Positions 14,045-33,233 of a stretch of DNA of 33,685 nucleotides are shown one piece after another. A model generated the notes under the pieces. That model was given only the letters and a program-made list of their open reading frames with translations, made no database searches and was not told where the DNA came from. The position numbers were made by a program, and so were the translations under genes. The DNA lies in IMG/VR virus record IMGVR_UViG_3300031841_000749, positions 1 to 33,685 of that record; one strand, 5' to 3'. The first letter of the stretch is position 1. Each line of letters starts with the position of its first letter. The stretch comes from a virus.

Positions 14045-17000
14045 ATGGCAGGTTATACAAGACAAAGTGTGGCTACAATTATTGCTAATGCAGTTATTAA
14101 AGCAGGTCCACTTAACGCAGAGTTTGATCAAATCTTAGCAGCATTTAATCAGGCAACAGGGCATACCCATGATGGTAGTTCTGCAGAGGGTGCATATGTA
14201 CCATTAATTTCTGATACAAGTGCATTTAACAAAGTAGTTATTGATGAGGCTAACAACAGAATTAGTTTCTACAATGACGTATCTAGTGCTGCAGTAGAGC
14301 AAATTAGGCTGGAGGACGGTGTACTTAAACCTGTAACAGACAATGATATAGACCTAGGTGCTTCAGGTCTTGAGTTTAAGAATTTGTATGTAGACGGTGT
14401 AGGTTACATTGACACTATCGAAATTCACGAGAATGCTACAATTACTGGTGATGTTAGTGTTGGTGGTAATTTAACTGTCGATGGTAATACTACCCTAGGC
14501 AATGCATCTTCAGATACAGTTACAGTTACTGCCCAAGTCTCTTCTGACCTTGTTCCAAGTGGAGCATCTTTTGATCTAGGTAGTCTTAGCAATCAGTGGG
14601 ACAACTTATGGATCAACGGTACTGCCAGCATAGATACTGGAACTTTTGGTACTTCTGACACTCTTACTATTAATGGTAATAGCATTACTAGTACCCAACC
14701 TTTAACAGTATCTGCTACTGGTGTAAGCTCAAACCTGTTTTTGGAGTCAGATCGTGATATTTATTTAGATGCAGGTGGTGGTGACATACGGCTGTATGCA
14801 GGAACTCAATTTGCAAAGTTTGCTAATAACAGTGGAAACCTTGTCATTGCCTCTGGCCCTGCAACGACAGCCATGACATTTTCAAGTGCTAATGTAGACT
14901 TTGCAGGTACAGTAGATGTTACAGGTAATACTACGTTAGATGCAAACTTAACTGTTGATGGCAGCACTACTCTAGGTGATAGTCAGTCTGATAGTGTTAC
15001 CTTTAATGCCCGTATTGCCAGTGGATATGGTGTAAACACAGGTATAGAACCTACTGCAAACAATACTTATAACTTAGGCAGTGATAGCTACGAGTGGAGA
15101 AACCTTTGGATTGAGGATACTGCTTATATTGATACAGGTGTGTTTGGTGACAATGAGTATATGACTCTCACAGATAATGAAATTGATGTATCTTCTGGTG
15201 GTCTTACTATTGATGTGACAGGTAATCTTACACTAGACTCTACCACTACAATGAACTTAAACACTAGTTCAGATTTAAATATTGATGCTGCGAGTGAGAT
15301 AGAGATTAGTGCAGGTACTTATCTTGATATAGATACTCTTGACGGTGTAGTAGGACTTCAAAAGAATGGTATTCTTTATGCACAATTTACAGAAAATAGT
15401 GGTAACCTTCAGATACAATCTTCTGCATTTCCTGCTGTAAACTTTACTAATGCAAATGCCGATTTTTTAGGTACACTGGATGTTACAGGTAATACCACAT
15501 TAGATAGTAACCTATCTGTCGGTGGTAATGCTACGATTACTGGAAACCTTACTGTAAACGGCACAACTACCACAGTAAACAGTACTACTGTAACTATTGA
15601 CGATCCTATCTTTACCATAGGTGGAGACACAGCCCCTGCATCAGACGACAACAAAGATCGTGGTATTGAGTTTAATTGGCACAATGGTTCTACAGCAAAA
15701 GTAGGTTTCTTTGGATTCGATGACTCTGAAGGTAAATTTACATTTATTCCTGATGCAACAAATACTTCCGAAGTGTTTAGTGGTACATCTGGAACTATTG
15801 TAGCTGATCTTGAAGGTAATGTTACTGGGGACTTAGACGGTAATATAGTACCCACAAGTGGCTCGTCTGAAGCTGCTAGTATAGTTCCTGGTGTTGACAG
15901 CACTTATACATTAGGTACTGATGTTAAACGTTGGGTAGATGTATTTGCAGATGAAATACATACAGGCTCTAACATTCAGTTTGAAGGTGCTACTGAAGAT
16001 GCCTTTGAAACAACCCTAACTGTTACAGACCCAACTGCTGACAGAACTGTTACTATTCCAGATGCAGATGGTACAGTTGCATTAGCTAACTCCTTAGAGC
16101 ACCCAACCTTTACAAATGGTGCAGATATTGGAAATAACGAGTTTCTAACTTTTGGTGGAGAAACAGCAGGTTCTTCTTTAGGCGGTAGTTATCCTGCAAT
16201 CAGTGCTTTAAGTAATCCTAGTGATAGAAGTAATGACAATTTGTTTTTCTATATTGATGGTTCTAACAGAGTAAACATCAATCAGAACGAAGTGTATCTT
16301 GCAACAGGTATGGATATTGTTTTTGAGGGTGATACCTCAGATGCAAATCAAACAAGGCTTGTTGTAGAAGACCCTACTGCAGATAGAACAATTACTTTAC
16401 CTGATCTTGATGGTACTGTACCTTTAATTAACAGCAGTGGTCACTTAGTTGTTGAGAATGCTGACCCTGAACTACATCTTATATCTACAGATGTTGGTGA
16501 AAGTTATTTTCAACTTAGAAAAAGCTTTGTTGCAGATGCTTGGGATATACGGATCGACGGGTCTAATTCCGCATCAGGTAGTATTTTTAGTACAACTATT
16601 GACAATGTATTATTCCAAGAACAACTTGTTTCTGGTGGGCTTGCTGATACAACGTTTAAAGATACTGTTACAATTGAACCTAACGATCTTACAAACGGCG
16701 ATGGTAGTCTACAAATAAACAGTGGGCTTTTCGGTGAAGCAAAAATTGTTGTAAATTCAAATGACCCCAAGATAGGTATTGGTACAACTTCTCCTGCTGT
16801 TTCACTAGACATTGCAACAACTGATGCAATTCAAGTTCCTGACGGTACAACAGCAGAACGTCCTGCTTCACCTGCAAGTGGTATGTTCCGTTACAATACA
16901 GATGAAAATGGTTTTGAAGGTTATGCAAATGGTGTATGGCAACCTTTAACTGATAAGAAACAAACTGCAAATACTACCTCTACTACTCAAACTGCTATTG

Positions 17001-17260
17001 CAACTTACGCATATGCAAGTTATGTTGGTGGAGAATTTTTAATTACGGCAGATGATGGAACAGAACGTACTATTACTAAACTACTCGTAGTACATGATGG
17101 TACGACTGCTGTTGCTACACAGTTTGGTGAAGTAAATACAGATGCTGCTCTTGCTACATTTGATGTAGACATTAGTGGCTCTAACTTTAGAATACTTGCA
17201 ACTGCTGCAAGTGCTTCTTCTACAGATTACACAGTGATTGCAACTTTAATAGACTCATAA
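14045..17260 (+). CDS. Long tail fibre protein
   Basis: A 1071-aa fibre starting one base after the nozzle stop. Residues 1-55 (NAVIKAGPLNAEFDQILAAF, then GHTHDGSSAEGAYVPLI) form the virion-attachment end common in marine phage fibres. Residues 95-660 carry several copies of a module, 'LG-S-x-x-x-E/Q-W-R/D-N-L-W-I... IDTG... NLTVDGNTTLG', probable beta-helix or triple beta-spiral shaft. Residues 518-575 (DDPIFTIGGD, then GFFGFDDSEGKFTFIPDATN) are a widespread shaft segment. A tip region includes KIGIGTTSPAVSLDI (909-923), RPASPASGMFRY (939-950) and a C-terminal beta domain (990-1071). Function: host binding. The repeats invite recombination. No chaperone/autocleavage domain is clearly present. 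Confidence 0.9.
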   Translation: MAGYTRQSVATIIANAVIKAGPLNAEFDQILAAFNQATGHTHDGSSAEGAYVPLISDTSAFNKVVIDEANNRISFYNDVSSAAVEQIRLEDGVLKPVTDNDIDLGASGLEFKNLYVDGVGYIDTIEIHENATITGDVSVGGNLTVDGNTTLGNASSDTVTVTAQVSSDLVPSGASFDLGSLSNQWDNLWINGTASIDTGTFGTSDTLTINGNSITSTQPLTVSATGVSSNLFLESDRDIYLDAGGGDIRLYAGTQFAKFANNSGNLVIASGPATTAMTFSSANVDFAGTVDVTGNTTLDANLTVDGSTTLGDSQSDSVTFNARIASGYGVNTGIEPTANNTYNLGSDSYEWRNLWIEDTAYIDTGVFGDNEYMTLTDNEIDVSSGGLTIDVTGNLTLDSTTTMNLNTSSDLNIDAASEIEISAGTYLDIDTLDGVVGLQKNGILYAQFTENSGNLQIQSSAFPAVNFTNANADFLGTLDVTGNTTLDSNLSVGGNATITGNLTVNGTTTTVNSTTVTIDDPIFTIGGDTAPASDDNKDRGIEFNWHNGSTAKVGFFGFDDSEGKFTFIPDATNTSEVFSGTSGTIVADLEGNVTGDLDGNIVPTSGSSEAASIVPGVDSTYTLGTDVKRWVDVFADEIHTGSNIQFEGATEDAFETTLTVTDPTADRTVTIPDADGTVALANSLEHPTFTNGADIGNNEFLTFGGETAGSSLGGSYPAISALSNPSDRSNDNLFFYIDGSNRVNINQNEVYLATGMDIVFEGDTSDANQTRLVVEDPTADRTITLPDLDGTVPLINSSGHLVVENADPELHLISTDVGESYFQLRKSFVADAWDIRIDGSNSASGSIFSTTIDNVLFQEQLVSGGLADTTFKDTVTIEPNDLTNGDGSLQINSGLFGEAKIVVNSNDPKIGIGTTSPAVSLDIATTDAIQVPDGTTAERPASPASGMFRYNTDENGFEGYANGVWQPLTDKKQTANTTSTTQTAIATYAYASYVGGEFLITADDGTERTITKLLVVHDGTTAVATQFGEVNTDAALATFDVDISGSNFRILATAASASSTDYTVIATLIDS

Positions 17261-17268
17261 GGTGACTC

Positions 17269-18465
17269 GTGGCTAATACCAGAACATTTACAGCTAACAA
17301 CGGATTATCTAATGTAAACTCAATTTCTGAGATTGTTGGCAGCTTTGGTCCAGATGGAAGTGATGTACTAAATCTTAGTGCAGTTCAAAATATTGGTGCT
17401 GCCTTAGACTTATCTTTAGGTTTTAGTTTTTATGCAGGTCGTTTTCATCTAAACGATGGTGGAACTAGGCTATACATACATCAAGGGGCATTTGGCGATA
17501 CTATAAGAAGGTATGATCTATCTACTGCATATGACATATCTACAGCTTCATTTGCGGAAGCTTATGATTATTCAGGTCTTACTGGTTCTAATAACGGGTC
17601 TACCACTAGCAGAGATGGAACAAAGTTTTATATTGTCGATACTAGTACGCCTTTAAAAATAAAACAAGTGACTTTAAACACCCCATATACATTTAGTTCT
17701 GTCACAAATAATGGGGACTATCTTGATTTAAGTTCTTACAGTCAAGTTGGAAGTTCTATATACGATATAAGATTTAATCCAGATGGAGATTTACTGCATA
17801 TTGTAGATAATACTAACAGTCTCATACATCAATTTTCTTTAGGTACTGCTTGGGATATATCTGGGACAATAACCTACGATGGTTCTACATCATTAAATTC
17901 AAGTTCATATTATGGTTTTCATCTTAGTACAGATGGAACTAAATTATATACTATTAACTCTAGTAGAAACATAGAAGAGTATGATGTTTCTCCTGCATAT
18001 GATTTATCAAGTTCTTCTAATGTTACGTATACAGGGCAAAGTCATAATACAATCAGTTTAGGTGCAGTATCTCCTAGAGGAATTTCTTTAAATATGGACT
18101 ATACTGGAGGTACTGGTGATACTGTTTATATAGCTAACTACACTTCTGACCTAGAAATTTATGAAGCATCTATAGGTGAAGGACCATACAAAACTTTTGA
18201 TCTATCTTCTGGTTCAACTTTTATTGTAGAAAACTCTCAAAACAATACCTATAGATTTGCAAATCCACCTACATCTGGTCGTGGTGGTTTATATACTATA
18301 ATTATAAAAGGTTCTAGTTATTCTACTACACTAGGGGATGTGCAATGGCCTTCTGGTACAGCACCCACATTTAGTACTGCAGGAGCATATGATATAGTTT
18401 CTATTACAAGCTCAGATGGTGGTGCTACATATCAAGCTGTTCTTGCTATGGAGGAATGTAAATAA
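17269..18465 (+). CDS. Propeller-repeat adhesin-like protein, short paralogue
   Basis: A 398-aa protein with a GTG start at 17269 behind AAGGTGA. It is the shortest of three consecutive paralogues sharing the N-terminus MAN(N/T)xxFxxNxxL. Residues 55-300 hold about five repeats of roughly 45-55 aa with consensus 'F-x-x-DGTKLY-x-x...I-x-x-Y-x-L-S-T-A-YDIS-T' (for example RYDLSTAYDISTASF at 81-95 and STDGTKLYTI at 220-229), most simply a five-bladed beta-propeller. Residues 305-395 form one continuous C-terminal domain: FDLSSGSTFIVEN, FANPPTSG, WPSGTAPTF, SSDGGATYQ. In the two larger paralogues this domain is split. A role in receptor or polysaccharide binding is inferred from fibre context; no enzyme motif is seen. 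Confidence 0.8.
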   Translation: MANTRTFTANNGLSNVNSISEIVGSFGPDGSDVLNLSAVQNIGAALDLSLGFSFYAGRFHLNDGGTRLYIHQGAFGDTIRRYDLSTAYDISTASFAEAYDYSGLTGSNNGSTTSRDGTKFYIVDTSTPLKIKQVTLNTPYTFSSVTNNGDYLDLSSYSQVGSSIYDIRFNPDGDLLHIVDNTNSLIHQFSLGTAWDISGTITYDGSTSLNSSSYYGFHLSTDGTKLYTINSSRNIEEYDVSPAYDLSSSSNVTYTGQSHNTISLGAVSPRGISLNMDYTGGTGDTVYIANYTSDLEIYEASIGEGPYKTFDLSSGSTFIVENSQNNTYRFANPPTSGRGGLYTIIIKGSSYSTTLGDVQWPSGTAPTFSTAGAYDIVSITSSDGGATYQAVLAMEECK

Positions 18466-20591
18466 TGGCTAATAATGTACCATTCAAACCTAATAGCAGT
18501 TTAGAAGTAAACGGACCTATAGAGTTTTTAAAAGGAACAGTTACAGAAAGTAGTGGCAGTTATAACATAGACAATGGGCTAATAGAACGTAAAGTTTTTA
18601 ACTTTGCAAATAGTGGAGGCACTACATATACTGAGTCAGCTGAAACGAGAGATATTTGTTTTAAGCCTGATGGAACAGCTATGTTTGTATTGGAAGAAGG
18701 TATAAGTAGTTCTTTTAGAGGAGTAATAAGAAAATTTGATTTAAGTACTGCTTGGGATTTATCTACTGCTACTTATAATGCTTCTGAAAGTGCCGATACC
18801 ATTAACACTATAGGCACTCAAACTGAAGTAACTAGTCTAGTATTCATTCGTTGTTTTTTATTTAGTCCTGACGGTACAAAACTTTTTGTTGCAACAGTTA
18901 ATAACTCATCACCAAAAATTTTACAAATACCTCTTACCACAGCTTGGGATGTTTCAGCTTCAAGTGGGACTGTGCAAGATTTAGGTCCACTTCCTGATAC
19001 CAGTGCAACTCCCCTTGGTCCAAAAGCAATGTCTTTTAATGATGATGGTACTGAACTTTTTTCATGGTGTAGTACTTCATTAGGAATAAATAAAGTTTAT
19101 AAGTCTACTCTTAGTAGTGCTTATGACATAAGTGTTGTCAGTGGTACTACTACAGAACTGGCAGATACAGTAACGTCTATTCAAGACAGTGGCAGTTTAG
19201 GAACTATTGTTGAAGGTGCTTCTATAAGGTTTAATGAAGATGGCACAAAAGTTTTCTTTTGGACTCCGCAGCAAGATGGTGATACAAACTATATTATACG
19301 GATGTTTAATCTATCTACTGCCTACGATGTAACTACTATAGAAGGTGGTGGACCGTATCCAACTACACCTGATGCAACTTTTGATTTTACAACTTTAGGT
19401 TATACGACAGGTTATGGTAGTCCTGTAAGCTGTGATATACGTTCTATAGCATTTGGAAATGATGGTAAAAAACTTTATACTTTAGGTACTCAGTTAGTTA
19501 CGGAGTACGACATAGGTGGAAATAGACGTACCCTAGACCTATCTACTGGAAACTATTTTGAAGTAAACTTAGACGCAGATTCGGATTTAGTTTTTGATAA
19601 TGCTAGGGATGTAGATTTATTTTCTGTAAAAGTAAATGGAGTTTCAACTGAAGGTCATGGTACAGTACCTGGTAATTTTAGTACGTCTTCAAACTTGAAC
19701 AGCCTTATAAGTTTTAGCATTCCTTGGGGCTTTGACCTTATTGATAATGGCACTAAGTTGTACATATATGATGTTAGTGATGAACAAGTAAAATATATTT
19801 CACTCAGCACACCTTACGATGTAAGTTCTGGTTCGTTTAGTTATCAAAACTTTACCAGTACAACTGGAAGTGGGCTTGTCAATTTTAGGTCTTTAACAGT
19901 AAGAGATAGTGGCACAAAAATGCACTTGACTACAGGAACAACTGTAAACCAGTGGACTTTAAACACTCCTTATAGTTTAAGTAGTACTACCTACAACGGC
20001 AGTATTACTCCAACAAGCTCTAGGGCAGGTTGGAATATCTTTTGGAACAACGATGGTACAAGGCTGTACTCTTCTTCCACAACTGGTTCCATTCAACAGA
20101 TGGATTTAAGTACAGCTTACGACATTACTAGTACTGTAACAGACAGTGGAATAAGCCCTACTATGACTAGATCACCATATGGTATGGACTTAGATGAAAC
20201 TGGAACTTACCTCTATTATGTAACAAATGTTAATAATGATCAAATAATTTACAGAGCTACTCTATCTACTCCTTACGACATTAGTACTGTAGATTGGGCT
20301 ACTGAGGTTGAAATAGATTTAACTACAACGGTTGGTATGCCATCTTCAAGCAACTTTACTGGTGTTAGAGTTTTGGATGGAGGCAAAAAGGTAGCCATAC
20401 TTGATAACAGCTATGATGTTGCTAGGGTTTTTACTATACTACAAACCCCATCTATTACACTTTCTCCTAATGTAAATGTCTTAGGCACACAGACTTCTGT
20501 AACAAATGAATCATCTGCACGTTATACATTTAGTACAAAAAATGGTGGAAAAACCTTTATTGGAACTCAAACAGGGACAGACTTTTCATAA
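18465..20591 (+). CDS. Propeller-repeat adhesin-like protein, long paralogue A
   Basis: A 708-aa paralogue coupled to the previous gene by TAATG, with a GGAGGA site at about 18449-18454. It has two blocks of about five repeats: residues 60-352 (CFKPDGTAMFV, FDLSTAWDLSTATY, FSPDGTKLFVA, IPLTTAWDVS, FNEDGTKVFF, FNLSTAYDVTTI) and 419-660 (NGTKLYIYDVS, ISLSTPYDVSSGSF, NDGTRLYSSS, MDLSTAYDITST, TLSTPYDISTV). Between them, residues 355-393 (LDLSTGNYFEVN, LVFDNARDVDLFSVKVNG) correspond to the first half of the C-terminal domain of the short paralogue. The second half is at 663-702 (SITLSPNVNV, YTFSTKNGGKTFIG), so the second propeller appears inserted within that domain. Likely a virion-surface adhesin; the function is inferred. 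Confidence 0.8.
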   Translation: MANNVPFKPNSSLEVNGPIEFLKGTVTESSGSYNIDNGLIERKVFNFANSGGTTYTESAETRDICFKPDGTAMFVLEEGISSSFRGVIRKFDLSTAWDLSTATYNASESADTINTIGTQTEVTSLVFIRCFLFSPDGTKLFVATVNNSSPKILQIPLTTAWDVSASSGTVQDLGPLPDTSATPLGPKAMSFNDDGTELFSWCSTSLGINKVYKSTLSSAYDISVVSGTTTELADTVTSIQDSGSLGTIVEGASIRFNEDGTKVFFWTPQQDGDTNYIIRMFNLSTAYDVTTIEGGGPYPTTPDATFDFTTLGYTTGYGSPVSCDIRSIAFGNDGKKLYTLGTQLVTEYDIGGNRRTLDLSTGNYFEVNLDADSDLVFDNARDVDLFSVKVNGVSTEGHGTVPGNFSTSSNLNSLISFSIPWGFDLIDNGTKLYIYDVSDEQVKYISLSTPYDVSSGSFSYQNFTSTTGSGLVNFRSLTVRDSGTKMHLTTGTTVNQWTLNTPYSLSSTTYNGSITPTSSRAGWNIFWNNDGTRLYSSSTTGSIQQMDLSTAYDITSTVTDSGISPTMTRSPYGMDLDETGTYLYYVTNVNNDQIIYRATLSTPYDISTVDWATEVEIDLTTTVGMPSSSNFTGVRVLDGGKKVAILDNSYDVARVFTILQTPSITLSPNVNVLGTQTSVTNESSARYTFSTKNGGKTFIGTQTGTDFS

Positions 20592-22714
20592 TGGCAAATA
20601 ATCAACCATTCAAATTAAACTCTGGATTATCTGTAACTTCTGTCTTTGAGACTGCTGTACCAGTTACAGAAGAATCTTATGTTTTTAATGGCCCTTGGCC
20701 TACCCTTACGGATACTACGTCATTTACTATACCTTCTGCATATGTAGGTGCACAGGGCAATAAGGGTTTATTTTTCAAACCTGATGGGTTACAGATGTAT
20801 TTTACATCTAATGACCTATTTAATGGTGAAGCATATATTTATCAGTTTACTTTATCTACAGCTTGGGATGTTACAACTGCTTCCTATACAGCAGTATCAG
20901 GAGATAACATAGATGATGGAAACTATTTAGGTGAAACAGAAGGATTAAAATTTAGCCCTGACGGAACTAAAGTGTATGTTACTTCGTACATATCTCAGTT
21001 AATGGTCCAGTATCCTCTTACTACTCCTTGGGATATCTCTACACTGTCTAACTCTACTAGAGTAGAGGCTAGTTGGCCTACAATTATAGGTGCAGGATTT
21101 AATGTGCAAGGCGGTACGTTTATTGATGGTGGTAAACGACTAATACTTTCTCATACCAGTTTACCAACAGTTTCTCCAGATTTTTATGAAATAACTTTAA
21201 GTGAGCCATACAATATAGCTACAGCAGCTTACTACGGTGTAACTTATGATTATGTAGGTGCAGATAATAGTGCAGGGCCATGGACAGATTTTGCTTTTAA
21301 TAGCACAGGAACTATTGCAGTAGGCGTAAATAGTACAAAAACATATGATTTTAGTTTCCTTAGAACTGATCCTAATTCTCCTTGGGATTTAAGTACACTC
21401 ACACAGGGTCCACCATCAGGTGGTAGTTGGGCACCAAGATTTAATATAACAGGTATAGGTAATCCTGAAGGAATATTTATACACCCAGATAACACAAAAG
21501 TGTTTGTATTAGATGGTACTACAGATAAGATACATGAATTAGCATCTAACACAAGTACAAGTACTTGGGATACAGACTTTAGAAATTACAAAATAGATTT
21601 ATCTCAGGGTAATTATTTTACAAAACTTCTTACACACAATACTCGTCTTGAGTTTGATAATCCTCCACCTGATGGACAGGTTGGAAGTTTTATTATGGAA
21701 ATTACTGGCAATAGTGAAGGTTATGATATATCAAATCTTACATACGATTCAAGTAATTATAAGGAATTTAATACTAGAGTAAGGCAAATTGAATTTGGAC
21801 CTGAAGGCCGCAGTGTATCTTTTGCAGGGTATAGGTTTGCAAATTCCTTACATCAGTACCCTTTATCTGAGCCTTATAATCTTCTTACTATGGACCCTAA
21901 AAAATATGTAAGAATTGATATGAGTACTACAGCATATGGTAGTCAGACATTTTGTTACAGTTTTTATTTCAAACCTGATGGAACTTCTGTATACCTTATG
22001 GGCTATTCTGTGTCACCAGATATTATACAAGTAAATCTAAGTACGCCTTTTGATTTAAGTACTGCATCTTCTTCTTACGATGCAATTTTGGCAGTAGGTG
22101 CTGACATGAAAAGAATAGAGTTTAGTCCTGATGGATTAACTTTATTTATTCATTATATGAATTCACAAGATTTAGTTGGGCATCCTCTTACCACAGCTTG
22201 GGATATTACTACTGTTGATCTTCTTGATACTAGCAATAGTTATACTTTAACTACAGATGTGGCAGTTTCAGGAACTATTATGAGTGGTAGATTTAGTCCA
22301 GACGGAAAAGAGTATTATGCTTCAGAGGGTTGGCAGTCTTCAAGTACAAATCATAAAATGCACAAATTTGTTCTCACGACTCCATACGATCTTACTACTA
22401 TGTCTTACGATTCTAGTTCTGTAACATACAACTCTCTTAAATCTACCATACTAGTTCCTGGGTCAGTAACTTTTTCAGAAGATGGTAAAAAACTTTATGT
22501 TACAGATGATGGTGCAGATGATACTGTGCATGTATTTAATGTAGCACCATCCTCTACCCCAGACGATTTTTATATATCGTGGCCTGACAACATTAGATGG
22601 AACAAAGGTCTTATACCTGAAACACCTGCTACAGGTCAAACAGATCAATATGCCTTTATTACGGTAGATGGTGGCGAAACGTACTACGGAAAATTACTTG
22701 GAGATAACATATGA
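20591..22714 (+). CDS. Propeller-repeat adhesin-like protein, long paralogue B
   Basis: A 707-aa paralogue, again joined by TAATG and starting MANNQPFKLNSGLSV. The first repeat block is at 58-320 (FFKPDGLQMYF, FTLSTAWDVTTASY, FSPDGTKVYV, YPLTTPWDISTLS) and the second at 398-652 (FKPDGTSVYLM, VNLSTPFDLSTASS, FSPDGLTLFI, HPLTTAWDITTVD, FVLTTPYDLTTMS, FSEDGKKLYVTDD). Residues 332-374 (YKIDLSQGNYFTKLL, FDNPPPDGQVGSF) and 658-705 (FYISWPDNIRWNKG, FITVDGGETYYG) are the split halves of the C-terminal domain, with the second propeller between them as in paralogue A. The two copies have diverged strongly, so the duplication is not recent. A host-binding role is inferred from position. Confidence 0.8.
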   Translation: MANNQPFKLNSGLSVTSVFETAVPVTEESYVFNGPWPTLTDTTSFTIPSAYVGAQGNKGLFFKPDGLQMYFTSNDLFNGEAYIYQFTLSTAWDVTTASYTAVSGDNIDDGNYLGETEGLKFSPDGTKVYVTSYISQLMVQYPLTTPWDISTLSNSTRVEASWPTIIGAGFNVQGGTFIDGGKRLILSHTSLPTVSPDFYEITLSEPYNIATAAYYGVTYDYVGADNSAGPWTDFAFNSTGTIAVGVNSTKTYDFSFLRTDPNSPWDLSTLTQGPPSGGSWAPRFNITGIGNPEGIFIHPDNTKVFVLDGTTDKIHELASNTSTSTWDTDFRNYKIDLSQGNYFTKLLTHNTRLEFDNPPPDGQVGSFIMEITGNSEGYDISNLTYDSSNYKEFNTRVRQIEFGPEGRSVSFAGYRFANSLHQYPLSEPYNLLTMDPKKYVRIDMSTTAYGSQTFCYSFYFKPDGTSVYLMGYSVSPDIIQVNLSTPFDLSTASSSYDAILAVGADMKRIEFSPDGLTLFIHYMNSQDLVGHPLTTAWDITTVDLLDTSNSYTLTTDVAVSGTIMSGRFSPDGKEYYASEGWQSSSTNHKMHKFVLTTPYDLTTMSYDSSSVTYNSLKSTILVPGSVTFSEDGKKLYVTDDGADDTVHVFNVAPSSTPDDFYISWPDNIRWNKGLIPETPATGQTDQYAFITVDGGETYYGKLLGDNI

Positions 22715-23388
22715 GTACTTCAGGATTAATAGCTGCAGCAGCAGCATACAGCAACTACGAAGAATATATCCCGCCCCCAGTAATATCTTTTCATAGTCAC
22801 ACTATTGACTCAAGTAATATGAACATTACTGTGCCTAGTACAATAGAAGAAGGTGATTTGGCTATAGCATACTCAACAACTGCAACTGGTCCTGCTCCTA
22901 CTCTTTACTCTGGATTTACTCAAATAGCTAGTTTAAATTCTACTTTTGAAGATATGTTTCAGTATAAAATTTTTGATGGTACAGAAGGGGGTACAACTCT
23001 TACTAGAACTGGTGATAGCTATGATGCTGCAAGTTTATTAGTTTTTAGGTCAACTACAGGTGCAGACACAGTTTGGAGTTTAGATCAAAATAACACAAGT
23101 ATTGTGCAAACTAGTAGCACTCCTACTACAGTAAACTTAACCCTTCCTACAGTAGCTCCCACTATCATATTTGCAAACTATTCTGCTTATAGTTCGATGC
23201 CGTATATTAGTGGAACTTTTTGGGATGCTGACTTTCAAAACACGGGTGAAAGTAGTAATAGAATACACTTTTACTATGAAATACAGAATACAGAAGCTGA
23301 TCTAGCTGCTAGAAGTATAGTACCATCTGGTGATTACGGAAGTTATAACAGATTATCTTACGCAGTATTTAGTGCTACAAGAGCATAG
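22711..23388 (+). CDS. Small tail-fibre or adhesin-like protein
   Basis: A 225-aa protein starting in an ATGA overlap with the propeller protein. After a short Ala-rich helix (residues 6-14) it is entirely beta-like: VPSTIEEGDLAIAYST, PTLYSGFTQIASL, DAASLLVFRS, PTVAPTIIFANYSAY. The pattern 'VP-x-x-x-x-x-GDL...GFTQI' is common in small phage tail and adhesin domains that bind sugars or decorate fibre tips. It sits at the end of the adhesin cluster and before the fibre-assembly-like gene. No catalytic signature is seen. An Ig-like or jelly-roll domain is the most likely fold, not confirmed. Confidence 0.65.
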   Translation: MSTSGLIAAAAAYSNYEEYIPPPVISFHSHTIDSSNMNITVPSTIEEGDLAIAYSTTATGPAPTLYSGFTQIASLNSTFEDMFQYKIFDGTEGGTTLTRTGDSYDAASLLVFRSTTGADTVWSLDQNNTSIVQTSSTPTTVNLTLPTVAPTIIFANYSAYSSMPYISGTFWDADFQNTGESSNRIHFYYEIQNTEADLAARSIVPSGDYGSYNRLSYAVFSATRA

Positions 23389-23399
23389 AGGAAAATAAA

Positions 23400-23852
23400 A
23401 TGTATATTAACACAGTTAGAAATATCTACCCTTATACAGAAAAGGATTTTAGGAAAGATAATAGAAGAACATCTTTCCCTAAAGTTATTACTAATACTTT
23501 GTATGCCAAGTTTGGGGTATACCCAGTCACTGATGGCACCCAACCAGATTTTGATAAGACAACTCAAAAGGTTGTTGCAGACGATATGCCCACACAAAAC
23601 GATTCTGGCGATTGGGTATTAGGCTATTCTGTCGTAGATCTAACACCGCAAGAAATAGACGACCAGAATGGTCTAGTTGCTGAAGCTAATCGTGTAAAAC
23701 GTACAGCTCTTTTATCTGATACAGATTTTTATGGTCTATCCGACCAAGCTATGTCAGATGCTATGACAACATATCGTCAAAAACTTAGAGACATAACATC
23801 TCATGAAAACTGGCCGCATCTTTCTGATGATGATTGGCCAGTAAAACCTTGA
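23400..23852 (+). CDS. Tail-fibre assembly / tail chaperone-like protein
   Basis: A 150-aa protein. The C-terminal half, NRVKRTALLSDTDFYGLSD, then MTTYRQKLRDITSHENWPHL and DDDWPVKP, is the familiar ending of phage tail-assembly proteins of the DUF4376/tail-fibre-assembly type ('R...LL-x-x-TD-W/F...YRQ-x-LRDI...WP-x-x-P'). The N-terminal part (TNTLYAKFGVYPVTD) is a small beta region. Such proteins are usually encoded right after fibres and help them fold or attach, which fits this position. It is probably not a virion component. A purine-rich AGAGGAAAA precedes the start. Confidence 0.72.
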   Translation: MYINTVRNIYPYTEKDFRKDNRRTSFPKVITNTLYAKFGVYPVTDGTQPDFDKTTQKVVADDMPTQNDSGDWVLGYSVVDLTPQEIDDQNGLVAEANRVKRTALLSDTDFYGLSDQAMSDAMTTYRQKLRDITSHENWPHLSDDDWPVKP

Positions 23853-24144: not shown

Positions 24145-27100
24145 ATGGCATGGAATGATCCTAAACCAGTAAGAGATGGCTTTGGTAACGTAGTAAGGGA
24201 TGGTTTTGGCAACCCCGTTATGAATACTCCTGGTGCTTCACACCCTACAGATAACGATAGTTCCTCAAGAACCACAAAAATTTCGTCAAGTAATTTAAAC
24301 CCATCTGATAAGGTATTTCTTAATGTAAGTGGAGAAAACTACTACGACATTAATACAGGTCTTTACCATTATCAAGGCAAGACGTATGATAAAGCATCAG
24401 ATTACTCTGCTGCAGTAAAAGCCTTTAATGAAGGAAGAGGTGGTGGTTCTACTGAATGGACTAAAACTGACTACGGATATGATCCTGATAGAGTACGTAT
24501 AAGTAATACACCAACCACTCGGGAGGTTATGGAAACTCTTGCAGGTATGTCACTTACAGATCTTTATAGTAAATATGAATACAAAGAGTGGGGAAAAATT
24601 GCTAAAACAGCCTCGGATATTGTTTACGGGGTTATAGGCAGTAATGCCGACAACAGAGACTGGAAAACAATTTTTGAAAATGCTAAGAGTGATTCTGGCG
24701 TAGGCTATGACCCTAAAAAGTTTTTACAACTTGCTGGTGCCGCAACTAATAAAATGTATGGTGGTGTAAAACTTAAGTATAAAAAAGCTAAAAAGAATAA
24801 TAAGGGTGAAGTTACAGAAAAATCTAGTGTTATGATTGTAGATTCACAAGGTAATGCTCTAAGACAGCTTACTAGAAACAAAAATGAAGTTGCAAGAGTA
24901 TTAAGTTCTTTTGGTGTTGAAGATGTTAATAAGTCACTAGAAAACATACAGGCCGAAATGATTGCCGATAATGACGATATCGGCCTAAGTTCTTATGGCC
25001 AAGTATTTACATACTTCCAAGATAATGTTTTTGAACCTTGGAAAAATATCGAAGATATTTGGAATACAGAAAACTGGACATTGATGGGGGAAGGCACAGG
25101 AACTGTAGACGTTACCCTTGATCTAGAAGATACTGGTGGTGGAGCCGTTGGTGATACTGGAGGTGGCACTGGCGGTGATACTGGAGGTGGCACTGGCGGT
25201 GATACTGGTGATGATACTGACGGTACTGGTGTAGATACTGGGGATACTGACATAGGTACTGTAGGAGACGATTACACAGGTATCGTAGATCTTCCTGTAG
25301 ATCTTCCAACATATTCTGACCCAACAGATACAGGAATTACTCAAATAGATCCTTTAGACACTTTAGGTTCTACTGAAGGTGATGTAGGAATACTACCAAT
25401 CACCGACCCTTCCTATGACTTAGAAACACAGTTTACAGGTACAACAGATGTTGGTACAGAAACTGGCGGTGCTGGTGCTATACCAACTACAATTTCTATT
25501 CGTCCAAACTATACTGGTACGAATATGGCTAACCTTACTTCTCAGTCTCAATCTGGATTTGGTGGACAAAGAAAATATAAAAACAAGTATGGCCAAGAAC
25601 TTACAGTTACTGTGGATGGTTCTGGTAACCCTATTACCTATGTACCTCCAGGATTTAGTCCTGTTCAAGGACAAGCTAAGGGTGGTGTAGTTTCTGAGAA
25701 TGATCCTGAAGTACAACTGGCTAGAAGATTTCTAGGTTTTGATGGGCCTTCTCACCAACTTGAAAAGTTCTTAGACTCTAATCCTGCAGCAGCAGCTCGT
25801 ATGGGTAAATATCGTCAAGCTTTATCAGGAAGCAATCTTGGTTTTGATGAGGGTGGTTTAGCTGATACAGATTTGGCTGATACAACTTTAGAAGATTTTT
25901 CTGGAATGGCAGGAGATTTAGTTGGACAAACTACAACTCCAAGGCAATCAACCATAGATTTGGTTACACCAGAAACTGCTGACTTTATAGGTCAGGATGC
26001 GGGTCAAGCTGCTGATGTATCTCCAATGCAAGAGGTAGCTTTAGCAGGTACAGCATCTCAAGCTGTACTTCCTGGAACTGGAACTGCATCTACAATGACT
26101 GCAGGAACAGTGGCCCCAGGAGTACAAGCAGAGACAGATGCATTACAAGCTCAAACTGGAGAAGTCTCAGACAAAGCACAGGTAACTGCTGCACAACAAG
26201 AAACGTCTGCAGTATCTCAGTTAAAAGCTGAACAAGGTACAGCTATTATGATGGATAACCCTGTACAAAGGGAAATCCAAGATGGTGAACTTATCTCTGG
26301 TGCTGCTAATGCTTCTAAAGCTGCTGAGTTTACTGAACAAATTGAAGCAGCTACAGCAGAACCTTCACAGAAAGCTACCGTAGCAGGTCAGCTAGAAGGT
26401 CTTATGGCACAGTTTGAAGGTGGTAACACACCTGCATGGGCTGCTGGGTCTATGCGTCAGGCAATGTCTAAACTAGCTGCTAGAGGTTTAGGTGCTTCAT
26501 CTATGGCTGGTCAAGCAGTTATCCAAGCTGCTATGGAAGCTGCACTTCCTATTGCCCAAATGGATGCACAAACTCAAGCAAGTTTTGAAGCACAGAACTT
26601 GTCAAACAGACAACAACGTGCTATGCTTGCAGCACAACAACGTGCTACATTTATGCAGCAAGAGTTTGACCAAGAGTTCCAAGCTCGTGTACAAAATGCA
26701 TCTAAGATTGCTGATGTAGCAAATATGAACTTTACTGCAGAACAGCAGATTGCTCTTGAGAACTCTCGTGCAGCTAACACAATGGAGCTTAACAACCTAT
26801 CTAACCGTCAAGCTCTAGTTATGGCAGAAGCTGCTGCATTGGCCAACCTCGATATGGCAAACTTGAATAATCGTCAGCAAGCTGCTGTACAAAATGCTCA
26901 AGCTTTCCTACAGATGGATATGGCTAACCTAACTAATGAGCAAGCAACATCAATGTTTAAAGCTCAACAAAACATTCAGGCTCTGTTTACAGATACAGCT
27001 GCCTCAAATGCTGCAGCACAATTTAATGCTACAAGTGAAAATCAAACTAACCAGTTCTTTGCTAACTTAAATGCACAGGTAAGTCAGTTCAATGCTTCTC

Positions 27101-27555
27101 AAAAGAATGCTATGGACCAGTTTAACCTAAATAGTACAAATGCTATGAGACAGTTTAATGGAAACTTGCAGCAACAAAGAGACCTGTTTAATGCACAGAA
27201 TGGTTTGGTAGTAGCACAAGCTAATGCTCAATGGAGACAGAACATTGCTACACTAAACCAAGCTGCACAGAACGAAAGCAACATGGACTTTGCAAAGACT
27301 ATGAATGCTCTTACATCGACTACACTGGACGCCATTTGGCAACGTGAACGTGATATCATGTCGTTTGCCTTTACTTCACAGCAGTCAGCACTTGATAGAT
27401 CTTTGAATCTACTATTAGGTGATAAAAAGATTGCCGAAGTTGAGAAGCAACTTGGTGCTCAAAAAGATGCTGCATCTACAGACCTAGTGTTTAGATTCCT
27501 ATTTGGCTCTGATCCTGATGGCATCTTCGGTGGACTATTTAATAAACCATCATAA
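24145..27555 (+). CDS. Large internal or tail-associated virion protein with hendecad repeat
   Basis: A 1136-aa protein with an AAGGA site. The regions in order are: an N-terminal domain (1-310) with duplicated RDGFGN (10-15, 18-23); an acidic Gly/Asp/Thr low-complexity linker (326-370); a segment with AKGGV (511-515) and GFDEGGL (566-572), the same F-x-E-G-G motif as in the 1575-aa protein; an Ala/Gln-rich region (600-815); then an 11-residue periodic repeat from 819 to about 1046; and a short C-terminal domain (1047-1136) with FRFLFGSDPDGIFGG. Position just before the virion lysozyme suggests an inner-core, ejection or tail-needle-like protein. The long Asn/Gln-rich helix could form a trimeric rod or a trans-envelope conduit; that is inference. 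Confidence 0.75.
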   Translation: MAWNDPKPVRDGFGNVVRDGFGNPVMNTPGASHPTDNDSSSRTTKISSSNLNPSDKVFLNVSGENYYDINTGLYHYQGKTYDKASDYSAAVKAFNEGRGGGSTEWTKTDYGYDPDRVRISNTPTTREVMETLAGMSLTDLYSKYEYKEWGKIAKTASDIVYGVIGSNADNRDWKTIFENAKSDSGVGYDPKKFLQLAGAATNKMYGGVKLKYKKAKKNNKGEVTEKSSVMIVDSQGNALRQLTRNKNEVARVLSSFGVEDVNKSLENIQAEMIADNDDIGLSSYGQVFTYFQDNVFEPWKNIEDIWNTENWTLMGEGTGTVDVTLDLEDTGGGAVGDTGGGTGGDTGGGTGGDTGDDTDGTGVDTGDTDIGTVGDDYTGIVDLPVDLPTYSDPTDTGITQIDPLDTLGSTEGDVGILPITDPSYDLETQFTGTTDVGTETGGAGAIPTTISIRPNYTGTNMANLTSQSQSGFGGQRKYKNKYGQELTVTVDGSGNPITYVPPGFSPVQGQAKGGVVSENDPEVQLARRFLGFDGPSHQLEKFLDSNPAAAARMGKYRQALSGSNLGFDEGGLADTDLADTTLEDFSGMAGDLVGQTTTPRQSTIDLVTPETADFIGQDAGQAADVSPMQEVALAGTASQAVLPGTGTASTMTAGTVAPGVQAETDALQAQTGEVSDKAQVTAAQQETSAVSQLKAEQGTAIMMDNPVQREIQDGELISGAANASKAAEFTEQIEAATAEPSQKATVAGQLEGLMAQFEGGNTPAWAAGSMRQAMSKLAARGLGASSMAGQAVIQAAMEAALPIAQMDAQTQASFEAQNLSNRQQRAMLAAQQRATFMQQEFDQEFQARVQNASKIADVANMNFTAEQQIALENSRAANTMELNNLSNRQALVMAEAAALANLDMANLNNRQQAAVQNAQAFLQMDMANLTNEQATSMFKAQQNIQALFTDTAASNAAAQFNATSENQTNQFFANLNAQVSQFNASQKNAMDQFNLNSTNAMRQFNGNLQQQRDLFNAQNGLVVAQANAQWRQNIATLNQAAQNESNMDFAKTMNALTSTTLDAIWQRERDIMSFAFTSQQSALDRSLNLLLGDKKIAEVEKQLGAQKDAASTDLVFRFLFGSDPDGIFGGLFNKPS
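25153..25224 (+). repeat. 24-bp tandem repeat encoding Gly-Asp-Thr linker
   Basis: The unit beginning GATACTGGAGGTGGCACTGG is repeated exactly at 25153-25176 and 25177-25200, followed by a diverged third copy (25201-25224). It encodes DTGGGTGG units in the acidic linker of the 1136-aa protein. It is a likely slippage site, so linker length may vary between relatives. Confidence 0.85.
26599..27282 (+). repeat. 11-residue (hendecad) protein repeat in the 1136-aa protein
   Basis: Landmarks keep an 11-residue register: LSNRQQ at residue 819, LSNRQA at 885, LNNRQQ at 907 and LTNEQA at 929 are 66, 22 and 22 apart. From residue 959 successive units start QFNAT, QFFAN, QFNAS, QFNLN, QFNGN, LFNAQ, QANAQ. 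This is a hendecad pattern, suggesting a long straight or right-handed helical bundle. Confidence 0.8.
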
Positions 27556-28869: not shown

Positions 28870-29790
28870 ATGGCATTTAATCCAGTAGGAGTTGTTAATT
28901 GGTTAGAAAAAGCTGATGCAGCTAAAGCAAGAGAAGAAGAACTCATTCGTAGTAGAGAGGATGCCCTTCTGGGATTGTACCTGAAGGGTGGTAAATCTGG
29001 ATCAGCTACTAAAGAAAGAGTTGGTGCAGCAGAGGCTGCTATAAAATTTCAAAACAGGATTGATAGTTCTGGTATTACTGACGAAGAGACTTTGAACTAT
29101 CTGAATAATATTGCTTCAGATCCCTATGCATCTCAAGACGTTTTAAAGTTTATTGATGAACAAGCTACAGAATATGATAGGGTAATTAATCTAAGGGATT
29201 TACCTACAATGATTAGTATCATTGAGGCTCCTACGTCTGACGATGATAAGATTGATCTATTAAAAGAGTTTGAGGTTGTAGATCTTACAAACAAAGACGA
29301 GTACTACAAGCTAGCTGAAAGAATTACTAATATGACCACTAAAAATGGTCGTACAGTATTTGTAGATATCGGTCCAGATGTAATTGCAAAGACAGACTTT
29401 ACTGTAAGAGAAAAGCAATTTGAGGGTGTACAAAAACAAGTTATCCGTATGGCTCAAGTAGCTGTAGATAGTAATCATCCAGAAGCTATGAGAATTCAGT
29501 CCGAACTAAATAATCTAGGCTCAAGTCAATCGGCATTGGTAGATAGAGCAACAGAATATTTATTTGAGATGTTTATTACTCCAGAGCTTGTACAAGGTCT
29601 CGAAGAGGAAAACCCAACTGCCTATCGTGAACTGTCTAAAAACCACCTAATTCAACCCTATCTTATAACTTCAGACAACACTTTCCCTGAGCCAAGTCAA
29701 GCAGCTATTGAGGCTCTATTAGCTGACCCAAGCAAAAGAGCTGAATTTGATCTTAAATTTGGACCAGGATCTTCTGACGAGTATTTATAA
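28870..29790 (+). CDS. Unknown virion-region protein
   Basis: A 306-aa protein, soluble and mixed helical, beginning MAFNPVGVVNWLEKADAAKA followed by a charged helix (REEELIRSREDALLGLYLKG). I see no family motif, signal or membrane segment. The C-terminus includes MFITPELVQGLEEENPTAYR and ends in LKFGPGSSDEYL. It is coupled to the following 1147-aa gene by TAATG and lies among candidate ejection proteins, so an internal virion protein or its chaperone is plausible. This is context only. Confidence 0.65.
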   Translation: MAFNPVGVVNWLEKADAAKAREEELIRSREDALLGLYLKGGKSGSATKERVGAAEAAIKFQNRIDSSGITDEETLNYLNNIASDPYASQDVLKFIDEQATEYDRVINLRDLPTMISIIEAPTSDDDKIDLLKEFEVVDLTNKDEYYKLAERITNMTTKNGRTVFVDIGPDVIAKTDFTVREKQFEGVQKQVIRMAQVAVDSNHPEAMRIQSELNNLGSSQSALVDRATEYLFEMFITPELVQGLEEENPTAYRELSKNHLIQPYLITSDNTFPEPSQAAIEALLADPSKRAEFDLKFGPGSSDEYL

Positions 29791-32700
29791 TGGCAAACTT
29801 TTTTGATCAATTTGATCCACAAGAAGAACCTCAAGAAAACTTCTTCGATCAGTTTGATAACCAAATCACACAGAACCCTCTACCTGAGCCAGGAACTTAC
29901 ACAGAGAATGAGATGGTTGAAGATGATCGGATGTTTACCATCATCAACAACTACATGCTTGATCGTTATGGTCTTCAGTCTGTAGAGAATAAAAGTCGTG
30001 AAAAGATTGTAGATGACTTCTTAGACAATCGTCGTGGTGTATCTGCAGGTAACACTGTGCGTGGTCTGTCGGAGATGGACTACCTAAACGATATTAGTGG
30101 TGACGAAGAAAAGATAGGTAGAGCAGCTGCGGCTGCAGCTTTGTTTGAGAACATGGCAGGTCTTTACTCTAGAGAAACTACCGTAGGTGAAAAGATTAGG
30201 GGTACTGGGGACTACGTTCGTACAGCATTGCTAGATCCAATCAACCTAGCTGGCGGTCTTGTTGGAAAGTTTATCGGTGGTGGTGCTGTTCGTTTAGGTA
30301 CTCAAAGTGCTAAGAAAGTAGCACTACGTGAAATGGCTAAGAAGCAAGCAGCAGGTGCCAGTGCAAAAGAAGTATCTAAAACTGGTAAAAAAGTATTTAT
30401 ACAGGCTGTAGATGCTGCAGGTAAACAGACAACCAAGCAAGTTGCTGACTACTCAGCCCGACTACTATCATCAAAAGGTCTCAAACGTCTGGCACAGAAA
30501 GGTGCACTGGCTGAGATTGCAGCAGTCACTGGTATTGAAGCTGCTGTCAGTGTTGGCATGGAATATCTGTATCAGGATGGACTCATAGAGCTAGGTGTTC
30601 GTGACGACTACGATAAGTTTGCTATGGGTATTGCAGCCCTTGGTGCTACTGCTATTGGTGGAGTACAGGCAGGTAAAGTTATGCTTCGTGGTACCTCTGG
30701 TGTAGCTGCACCATCTGTTACTGTAAGAGACCCTAATGCTGCAGGTATGGTAATAGACCTTGCTAAATCTATTGAAGATTACACAAACGCCCTAGTGCCT
30801 AAAACTGGCAGTTGGAAGAACAAAGTTAAGGGTGGTGTAGAACTTAAAGATCTAGACACAGACTTTTTTGTAGACCTGTTGTTAGGTCATGTTGATGACG
30901 AAGGTAACGTTGTACTAAAGGGGTTAGCACAGTTAGCACAAGAACGTGGCCTAGTATTTAATAAACGTGGTGATGATGATCTGTATAGTAACTGGATGGC
31001 CGATCTAATCAAACAGTCTGATCCAGCAGATATCAAAACATTTATTAAAGCTTTTGAAAAGTCTACAGGCAACAAACTAAAACAAGCTAAAACTTTAAGT
31101 ATCGAAGAGTTTGCAGATACCTTTGCAGCTAAGATGAACGGTGCTGCCAGAGTACTTAATGCTGCATCACAAGGTTCAAAACTTAATGGTGTATCTGTCA
31201 AAGACTTAGAGATTGCACAGATGATTGAATCTGCACTTGATTTAGGTTTGTTGAAAAAGGCAGATGAGTCTAAGGTAGCAGGTCTATCTGAAAAACTTCC
31301 TGATTTTATTCGTAACAACCAAAACAGATTGATTAGATTACTTGTATCTAACCCATCAACAAGTGCACTTAACATGATTGGTTGGGGTGCTAATGCAGGT
31401 ATCAATGCTGTGTCTGATATGGCACTAATGACCCTGCATGCAGGTAGAGGTACATTAGCTAAAGCTATCGGCATGGAAAAGGCTGGAGAAAAATCCTACA
31501 AAATTGCTAAAACCTTGTTTGAATCTAACGCATTTCGTATGAGACTGCTGTTTGATCCTGATATGACTCATGCAGCATTTGAATCTGCACTTACACGTAA
31601 TTCAAAAGCTTTACAAACACTAGCCAGCACTTTGCCAGGTGGTATTGATAACGTCACTAAGCTTGTAACTGATGGTAAGTTTACACCTAACCAAAAGCTT
31701 GTAGGTGAAAAAATTGACGACGGTGTAGACTTTATTCAGGCACTTACTTTTGTTAAGGCTCAAGATAGCTTTACCAAGTCTCAAGAATTTATCTTTCAGA
31801 TGGATAAAGAACTTAGACTAGTAACTGGGATGGGTTGGTCAGACTTTTATAACTGGGATGATGCTTACAAGTTTATGGCCACAAAAGAGTATGCTCAAAT
31901 AGAAGCTAAAGCCGTAGATAAAACTTTAGAAAGCATCTTTAGTAAATCTTATAAAGGTTCTGGACTTGTTGGTGAAGTTGCTGCAGTTATTGAAGATGCT
32001 AGAAACATTCCTGGGGTTGGTCTACTTATCCCATTTGGCAGATTCTTTAACAACACAGTAGACTTTGGTCTACAAGCCACTGGTTTATCTATTGCAGGTA
32101 AGGCTGCTGGTAAATACTCAGACAAAAGCTATGGAGAGCTGTTTACTAAAGCTGCAGTGTCTTGGGGTCTGGCCTCTACTATGGTGCAAACAGAAAGTGA
32201 AAATCGTAAAGCAGGTCTAGGTCTTTATCAAACATCTGTTGGAGGTGAAGTTGTTACACGTCAGTATGACTACCCAGTTTCATTCTTTAAAGCTTGGGCA
32301 AGAATTGGTTCTTACTATATGGATGGTGAAGAGCCACCTGCAGAACTTCTTTCACAAATAGCTAGAGACTTTACTCTAGAAGGAGTTCTTAGAAATTTAG
32401 ACAAGACTCAACAAGATGTTGCAGGTCTGTTCTTCTATATGTTCCAAGGAGATATGAAAGAATCTTGGAGAGCCTTTGGTAAATCTATGGGTGGTGTAGG
32501 ATCACAGGTTGCCTCTTCAGCTACACGTTTTATTGAACCTGTAAACACACTGGCTGGCATTGCCAGAGGTGAACAAGCCAGACCTATTGATCGTTATCAA
32601 GGAAACAAATTCTACAATGACTCTGTTCGTTATATTGACAATATTATTCCATTGTTTACTGGTAAACCAGTCGGTGAGACACTTAAGCAAGCAGCAACAG

Positions 32701-33233
32701 GAGAAGCTGATATTACATCTACAAAGTCATTAGGTATTAGGCCTATCCGACTTACTGATACCCAACGTGTTATGAACATGCTTGGTTATGAGCAGTTCGA
32801 TATTAATGCTGCTAGAAATATCAGAACAAAAACACCTGAAGCTGCTAACGAATATAACGGCATCTTGTTTGATATTATTGAGGCTAAGTCTTCGGCACTT
32901 ATGGACAGTAAAGCATTTAGAAACATGTCTATGTCTAGACAAAGACTTTATTGGGAAAAAGAAATACTGCCTGAAGCTAAAGAATTAGCTAAAACTTTCT
33001 TGTATCTCCAGTACTCAGGTCCACTTGATACCATTGACTTGCAGTATGAGTTAGCAGGTAAATATAATAATAAGAAACTAGATGATGCTCTCGAAGAGCT
33101 AAACTTTGAGGGTGATTTAGGAGATATGACGAGGGCTGAACTTTATGTTTTAAAAGAATATCTTTCTACAATAGAGCAGATAGAACTGCTCAGAGTTCCT
33201 TCGGAGGTTGGAGCAAAACAATACGGTAGATAA
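29790..33233 (+). CDS. Large internal / DNA-ejection protein candidate
   Basis: An 1147-aa protein, the last gene of the late arm. The N-terminus carries two copies of NFFDQFD (residues 3-9 and 17-23) in an acidic disordered segment. It is followed by Ala/Gly-rich hydrophobic helices: INLAGGLVGKFIGGGAVRLG (151-170), AEIAAVTGIEAAVSVGMEYL (241-260) and FAMGIAALGATAIGGVQAG (277-295). The rest is helical. Very large helical proteins with such helices at the end of a podovirus late operon are typically core proteins ejected into the host envelope to form the DNA channel, like T7 gp16. There is no transglycosylase motif, which fits the separate lysozyme gene. The role is inferred; a strong terminator follows 7 bp after the stop. 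Confidence 0.75.
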   Translation: MANFFDQFDPQEEPQENFFDQFDNQITQNPLPEPGTYTENEMVEDDRMFTIINNYMLDRYGLQSVENKSREKIVDDFLDNRRGVSAGNTVRGLSEMDYLNDISGDEEKIGRAAAAAALFENMAGLYSRETTVGEKIRGTGDYVRTALLDPINLAGGLVGKFIGGGAVRLGTQSAKKVALREMAKKQAAGASAKEVSKTGKKVFIQAVDAAGKQTTKQVADYSARLLSSKGLKRLAQKGALAEIAAVTGIEAAVSVGMEYLYQDGLIELGVRDDYDKFAMGIAALGATAIGGVQAGKVMLRGTSGVAAPSVTVRDPNAAGMVIDLAKSIEDYTNALVPKTGSWKNKVKGGVELKDLDTDFFVDLLLGHVDDEGNVVLKGLAQLAQERGLVFNKRGDDDLYSNWMADLIKQSDPADIKTFIKAFEKSTGNKLKQAKTLSIEEFADTFAAKMNGAARVLNAASQGSKLNGVSVKDLEIAQMIESALDLGLLKKADESKVAGLSEKLPDFIRNNQNRLIRLLVSNPSTSALNMIGWGANAGINAVSDMALMTLHAGRGTLAKAIGMEKAGEKSYKIAKTLFESNAFRMRLLFDPDMTHAAFESALTRNSKALQTLASTLPGGIDNVTKLVTDGKFTPNQKLVGEKIDDGVDFIQALTFVKAQDSFTKSQEFIFQMDKELRLVTGMGWSDFYNWDDAYKFMATKEYAQIEAKAVDKTLESIFSKSYKGSGLVGEVAAVIEDARNIPGVGLLIPFGRFFNNTVDFGLQATGLSIAGKAAGKYSDKSYGELFTKAAVSWGLASTMVQTESENRKAGLGLYQTSVGGEVVTRQYDYPVSFFKAWARIGSYYMDGEEPPAELLSQIARDFTLEGVLRNLDKTQQDVAGLFFYMFQGDMKESWRAFGKSMGGVGSQVASSATRFIEPVNTLAGIARGEQARPIDRYQGNKFYNDSVRYIDNIIPLFTGKPVGETLKQAATGEADITSTKSLGIRPIRLTDTQRVMNMLGYEQFDINAARNIRTKTPEAANEYNGILFDIIEAKSSALMDSKAFRNMSMSRQRLYWEKEILPEAKELAKTFLYLQYSGPLDTIDLQYELAGKYNNKKLDDALEELNFEGDLGDMTRAELYVLKEYLSTIEQIELLRVPSEVGAKQYGR

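Follow-up and report, generated by a model that had tools for sequence, protein, structure and literature searches.

Tail-fibre-type paralogues with two sockets for exchangeable, predicted five-bladed propellers in an HMO-2011-type marine phage

Three consecutive genes, here termed A, B and C, in the IMG/VR virus record IMGVR_UViG_3300031841_000749 probably encode tail-fibre-type paralogues that share one frame with two sockets, each of which is either empty or filled by a five-bladed propeller (rarely by a DUF7483 domain), with the propellers acting as receptor-binding heads. The frame is a short N-terminal stub followed by a beta-sandwich-like end domain; socket 1 is situated at the junction of the stub and the end domain, and socket 2 lies in a hairpin loop of that domain. 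Among related viruses, single propellers are swapped, gained or lost. The window referred to throughout is the whole stretch of DNA that was analysed, namely positions 1 to 33,685 of the record (33,685 nucleotides).

The virus and the genes around the array

Judged by its capsid, the virus is an HMO-2011-type podovirus, because this protein shares 83% identity with its counterpart in Roseobacter phage CRP-13 and 71% with that in Puniceispirillum phage HMO-2011; the same similarity indicates that the host is probably a marine alphaproteobacterium. Terminase, portal/head-tail adaptor, capsid and tail genes are located 5' of the array, together with a gene for a large tail/structural protein directly adjoining it (14045–17260, plus strand; phrog_697 structural protein, E 1.5e-38). 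On the 3' side follow an ORF of 225 aa and the gene for a tail assembly chaperone (23400–23852, plus strand; PF16778 at 35.5 bits, above the cut-off; phrog_4912), so that the array sits in the tail module. The 225-aa ORF (22711–23388), which occupies the gap between array and chaperone, is 84% conserved in the relative and has no PHROG or Pfam match. Three giant ORFs of the window (4321–9048, 24145–27555 and 29790–33233, encoding 1575, 1136 and 1147 aa) gave no significant Pfam match and no PHROG of known function. A promoter/terminator scan across the array found no excess over shuffled sequences, and the Pfam Lactonase model had no match in the whole record.

Architecture of genes A, B and C

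The original prediction had described three consecutive paralogues made of blocks of about five repeats, the short copy with a continuous C-terminal domain and the two long copies with an entire propeller lodged in a loop of that domain. The three genes were confirmed as A (17269–18465; 398 aa, GTG start), B (18465–20591; 708 aa) and C (20591–22714; 707 aa), all on the plus strand and overlapping by 1 nt at both the A/B and the B/C junction. Repeats were located with a profile of 48 positions that was seeded on gp51 of Lentibacter phage ICBM2 and iterated on 769 repeats (consensus DTSPRGIFFKPDGTKMYVVGSSNDTVYQYSLSTAWDLSTASYDSVSFS). The DGTKxY anchors lie at aa 66, 118, 174, 224 and 279 in A; at 71, 138, 196, 261 and 335 in the first block of B and at 430, 484, 532 and 581 in its second, where the motif places a fifth near 634; and at 67, 126, about 182, 241 and 302 in the first block of C and 407, 465, 516, 573 and 633 in its second. 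The number of repeats can accordingly be given as exactly five in every block (5 in A, 5+5 in B and 5+5 in C). The sequence signal is weak for two blades, blade 3 of C block one and blade 5 of B block two; the former was recovered in the orthologue, and predicted strands support both.

In gene A the stub is followed by a single propeller in socket 1 (17359–18183) and by an end domain without insert (18187–18462; aa 307–398), both on the plus strand like all the parts given below. An end-domain profile of 88 columns is covered from column 1 to 88 by aa 309–393 of A (E 1e-23), confirming the unbroken domain of the short copy, and this region also matches the PHROG tail fiber families 3904, 9017 and 7760 (E 2e-4 to 2e-3; phrog_7760 and phrog_9017 in the C-terminal region, E 1.6e-3 to 1.8e-3). 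Gene C has two propellers, the first in socket 1 (20681–21589; strands 39–319 in the structural model) and the second in socket 2 (21725–22564), which lies between the first half (21590–21724; aa 335–374) and the second half (22565–22711; aa 662–702) of the end domain; the two pieces with five repeats between them match the whole end-domain model at E 4e-12 and 2e-17, and the second half matches tail fiber family phrog_7760 (E 1.5e-7). Gene B has the same layout as C: a socket 1 propeller (18555–19523), the first end-domain half (19524–19652; aa 356–405, profile E 5e-6, hhalign P 1.5e-6), a socket 2 propeller in the end-domain loop recognized by repeat profile and predicted strands (19653–20444), and the second half (20445–20588). 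The second half of B is weak by sequence: it was missed by the generic profile, but the profile for its gene slot (see below) places it at aa 687–708, the exact C-terminus, with 13.1 bits as compared with at most 4.8 in 300 shuffles (hhalign P 0.003). B had no PHROG match, and its frame does match the slot 2 profile. Two complete end domains in tandem were considered and rejected, as each protein yields a single first half and a single second half with the half-domain profiles. The split of the domain in the long copies, as originally proposed, is far beyond chance, since about 50 other proteins show this split, likewise with exactly five repeats inside it.

Predicted structure

Structure prediction, put forward earlier as a check on the propeller reading, supports it. 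AlphaFold2 was run on C with an 18-sequence family alignment and B was also modelled, giving models of moderate confidence (mean pLDDT 73 for C and 68 for B; pTM 0.50 and 0.57). Block two of C is predicted to have exactly 20 strands in four-strand groups (5 x 4) and block one about 19–20, whilst the end domain has four strands before the insert and three after it; the strand groups of B are similar. The strand order, with one strand before the first anchor and strands after the last, would be compatible with circular (velcro) closure of the first strand on the last. Searching the B and C models against the PDB with Foldseek returned tandem WD40 propellers (E about 1e-14), and among viral models a protein of 1213 aa, as long as CRP-13 gp43, ranked first and ICBM2 gp51 second. 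A phmmer search of C against the PDB gave no match; the best PDB sequence match was 1l0q, a YVTN-type surface-layer propeller and not an enzyme. The blocks of A, B and C are predicted to be five-bladed beta-propellers, a reading supported by the repeat profile and by the strand pattern of the B and C models.

Empty and filled sockets in other phages

Close-pattern searches with A, B and C found only one relative in viral contigs and none in genome contigs. Half-domain profiles trained on continuous domains only were run on 1086 ORFs of related contigs. In this first set, 21 proteins had five repeats before a split end domain and five inside it, 12 split proteins had none before and five inside, and a continuous end domain was found with five repeats before it in 10 proteins and without a propeller in 27, counts that are biased because these loci were fetched by a propeller protein. 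A second set, fetched through the end domain alone and so free of this bias, contained 17 more split proteins, all 17 with five repeats inside, together with 83 proteins that had a continuous end domain and no propeller and three with one. Altogether about 50 further split proteins from other phage contigs nearly all have exactly five repeats in the same loop, with the proviso that the two sets share some contigs and that most loci are metagenome contig fragments, some of them redundant across samples. Exactly five blades were found in 79 of 82 nonredundant cassettes.

The best evidence that a whole propeller can sit in the end-domain loop, as the original prediction held, comes from near-identical frames with and without the insert. 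The frames of L051:2742-3908 (no insert) and L142:14152-16068 (insert) are 95% identical. At the DNA level the two loci run in parallel as far as ...CAGGCTACGTTGTTGTTGG and once more after it from CAGCCTACACAGT...; the stretch between these points measures about 12 nt in L051 and about 760 nt in L142. Since insert-free end domains are so common, insertion rather than loss is the likely direction of change as judged from these sequences, and loss may have occurred in single cases. In its minimal form, stub plus end domain, the frame is a 117–120-aa protein in relatives.

The loop also accepts a different guest. In L149:9489-11747 the same split frame carries DUF7483 (PF24299, E 1e-110, two stretches) in both sockets, and another relative has it in socket 1; the loci with DUF7483 in sockets otherwise used by propellers are L149:9489-11747 and L141:17347-18663. 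The loop can accordingly serve as a socket for guests other than propellers. DUF7483 is also present twice in CRP-9 gp44 (L009:1839-3788), and it was not mentioned by name in the open-access literature searched.

Other phages carry stand-alone propeller proteins near end-domain genes, some with one block of five repeats (275–295 aa; L181:4100-4924, L184:4288-5115 and L188:2750-3595) and some with two blocks (536–549 aa; L180:4354-5961, L244:4288-5919 and L250:2709-4316). A protein annotated as a wD40 repeat protein in MW202701 (L257:20935-23079), a phage whose capsid is 69% identical to that of the window, is found at a similar, tail-fibre position and is followed by a tail chaperone; this 714-aa protein has many near-identical repeats (AYPWSGSGFGTKYANPATLPTG...), and it was set aside because its repeats differ.

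Where relatives carry consecutive frame genes, three slots recur, each with a distinct frame, for which the stubs are DFKVKNGI, DF(V/I)xxNAVEVG and xFKIKNGL, and in each slot sockets 1 and 2 can be filled or empty. Scored against these slots, the frame of A fits slot 1 best (60.5 bits), that of B slot 2 (47.2 bits) and that of C slot 3 (104.0 bits). Because gene order and frame had been used to define the slot sets, this agreement is a consistency check and not an independent proof; for A and C the assigned slot also came first either among the three genes listed for that slot or among the gene's own scores.

Exchange of single propellers

The window and its nearest relative, L002, carry the same three genes. 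Across the stub, propeller 1, end half 1, propeller 2 and end half 2, protein C is 92, 90, 93, 34 and 90% identical to its counterpart. Any two different propellers of the window and L002 are 25–34% alike, and propeller 2 of C (31–36% identical in amino acids to that of the relative over the module) is thus a different propeller and not a diverged copy. Third-codon identity between the two C genes is 49% inside the exchanged block and 78–85% in the flanks. In B it is propeller 1 that differs (39–42% amino acid identity), the later modules being 82–90% identical; this propeller retains 60–70% local similarity to its counterpart around aa 61–100, and the sequence suggests that its exchange may be older or partial. 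A second pair of loci, L142 and L145, is identical until the insert, 50% identical in it and 93% after it (100/100/100/50/93%). The reverse case has also been found, in which the same cassette, 84–92% identical, resides in frames that are only 62–70% alike (L044/L051, L063/L084, L073/L079 and L077/L079).

Where two frames are at least 85% alike, their cassettes mostly show background identity (median about 43%). Nearest-neighbour cassettes share a socket with a frequency of 0.60, as compared with 0.50 expected (p about 0.05). Since this is only slightly above expectation, both sockets seem to draw on one pool, and propeller lineages specific to one socket were rejected.

Proposed function and alternative explanations

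Variation within the propellers is concentrated in particular loops. In an alignment of 844 distinct repeats the variable positions are in the loop before the first strand (columns 2 and 4, 3.2–3.7 bits) and in the loop between strands two and three (columns 20–24, 2.2–3.7 bits), and the other two loops are conserved (means about 1.3–1.4 bits). The variable loops, DA and BC with strands assigned here by analogy, share one face of a propeller, which is the usual ligand face. A receptor- or glycan-binding array, as first suggested from the sequence, would fit the tail-fibre family matches, the variable loops on one face and the cassette exchange. It is most likely that the propellers are interchangeable receptor-binding heads on tail fibres, and from these patterns we infer the binding, the ligand and the location in the virion. 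The DA/BC-loop face would be the binding face and the ligands would probably be surface glycans. The identity patterns suggest that frame DNA on both sides of each socket could act as homology arms for recombination, and swapping one head at a time would change or broaden host recognition while the attachment and assembly parts stay constant. We lean towards an extension of this reading, in which the array works as a combinatorial recognition device: three genes with two sockets each would offer as many as six sites, each vacant or occupied independently of the others by a propeller, or by an unrelated domain such as DUF7483, from a pool shared among phages, with the frame supplying the socket and the homology arms.

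It is unlikely that the propellers are passive decoration, serving as spacers or making the fibre generally sticky towards particles or mucus-like polymers, with no recognition specific to a host. Close relatives do have empty sockets (the 117–120-aa frames), and so propellers are not essential to every fibre; against this explanation, cassettes swap while all of the flanking sequence stays and variation is concentrated on one loop face, which together suggest selection on specific binding. We consider an enzymatic role improbable, in which the propellers would break down polymers on the host surface as a lyase, a lactonase or a polysaccharide depolymerase. The family does weakly resemble propellers of the SGL, lactonase, arylesterase and Vgb lyase kinds in Pfam, but when 79 five-blade cassettes were aligned blade by blade, the only blade-specific residue was the exit Thr (blade 5, column 31), so that no conserved symmetry-breaking active site is visible, and cassettes of the same socket are only about 43% alike (median). 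It is very improbable that the apparent exchanges arose as chimeras during metagenome assembly, or that they reflect ordinary divergence of orthologous propellers that evolve fast: repeats do assemble poorly and most loci are short-read metagenome contigs, but the sequences flanking the exchanged blocks on either side differ by 8–10% between the window and its relative, which is not what a chimera would give, the L142 version is found again in contigs L146 and L179, third-codon identity drops inside the exchanged block, one cassette is kept in different frames, and gp51 of the isolate ICBM2 also seems to be split around five repeats.

Comparison with known systems

A close isolate counterpart to A–C is gp51 of Lentibacter phage vB_LenP_ICBM2 (Cobavirinae; AYP28110.1, annotated as hypothetical), which like A–C has five repeats of the same type between pieces that resemble end-domain halves 1 and 2, and is likewise adjoined by tail assembly chaperone genes. 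It differs in having one propeller, weakly matching end-domain halves (E 0.03 and 0.07) and no three-gene array. In ICBM2 (L008:2875-6879) three chaperone genes alternate with tail-fibre-like genes, as if there were one chaperone per fibre, whereas in the window one chaperone is recognized for three fibre genes. The genome paper on ICBM2 and the Cobaviruses describes the homologous ICBM2 region as a variable tail-fibre region and does not mention propellers (PMC6775973); nor does the CRP-9/13 genome paper.

The RCA roseophages, HMO-2011-type phages with Rhodobacteraceae hosts, are the closest virus group to the window (CRP-13 capsid, 83% identical) and also have five-repeat propeller blocks in the tail-gene region (CRP-2 gp51, CRP-9 gp42, CRP-13 gp43 and CRP-738 gp33). 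Unlike A–C, these proteins unite three blocks in a single chain of 1100–1240 aa, where the blocks lie between pieces of another conserved frame (L009:4372-8097, L010:4267-7908, L014:4405-8073 and L013:5425-8823). In CRP-738 a LamG-like domain (PF13385, E 2.3e-12) replaces the middle block.

Gp45 of Staphylococcus phage phi11 has a five-bladed receptor-binding propeller (PMC4901313, which also cites PRD1 P2), and so resembles the proposal for A–C in that a five-bladed propeller is the presumed receptor-binding module of a phage tail protein. In contrast to A–C, Gp45 has a triple-helical stem, a single propeller and a C-terminal tower, with no propeller inside an end-domain loop and no reported exchange of cassettes. 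It has no sequence match to A–C, and the models of B and C lack such a triple-helical N-terminal stem, having a stub of about 20–30 aa before the first propeller and no long predicted helices. The tachylectin family (tachylectin-2-like five-bladed lectins) was not among the Pfam hits.

In marine phages, metaviromic islands fall in host-recognition genes (PMC3909814), and modules for host recognition pass from one phage to another (PMC10579305). The window resembles these mosaic systems in that tail-fibre regions vary, partly by recombination; they are described at the level of genes, gene modules or intragenic regions, whereas the unit exchanged in the window is one propeller at a fixed socket within a gene. 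Propeller receptor-binding domains and mosaic tail fibres are already known separately, and for the cassette scaffold, a frame with two sockets and three slots, no description was found in the open-access literature. The earlier remark that no described system with this layout was known stands to that extent, but the layout itself proved to be widespread, and the exchange of propellers as cassettes and the lodging of DUF7483 in the same loop go beyond what had been noticed.

Biological significance

The comparison pins down both what is exchanged, a single five-bladed cassette, and where, in a fixed loop, and it provides naturally occurring phage pairs set apart by one cassette. Which sequence changes alter host recognition in uncultured marine phages is a long-standing question that becomes directly testable. 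Many unannotated marine phage proteins gain a label, and the frame offers a natural case of domain insertion in which one loop tolerates very different guests. If the combinatorial reading is right, a phage would be able to swap one binding head and leave the rest untouched.
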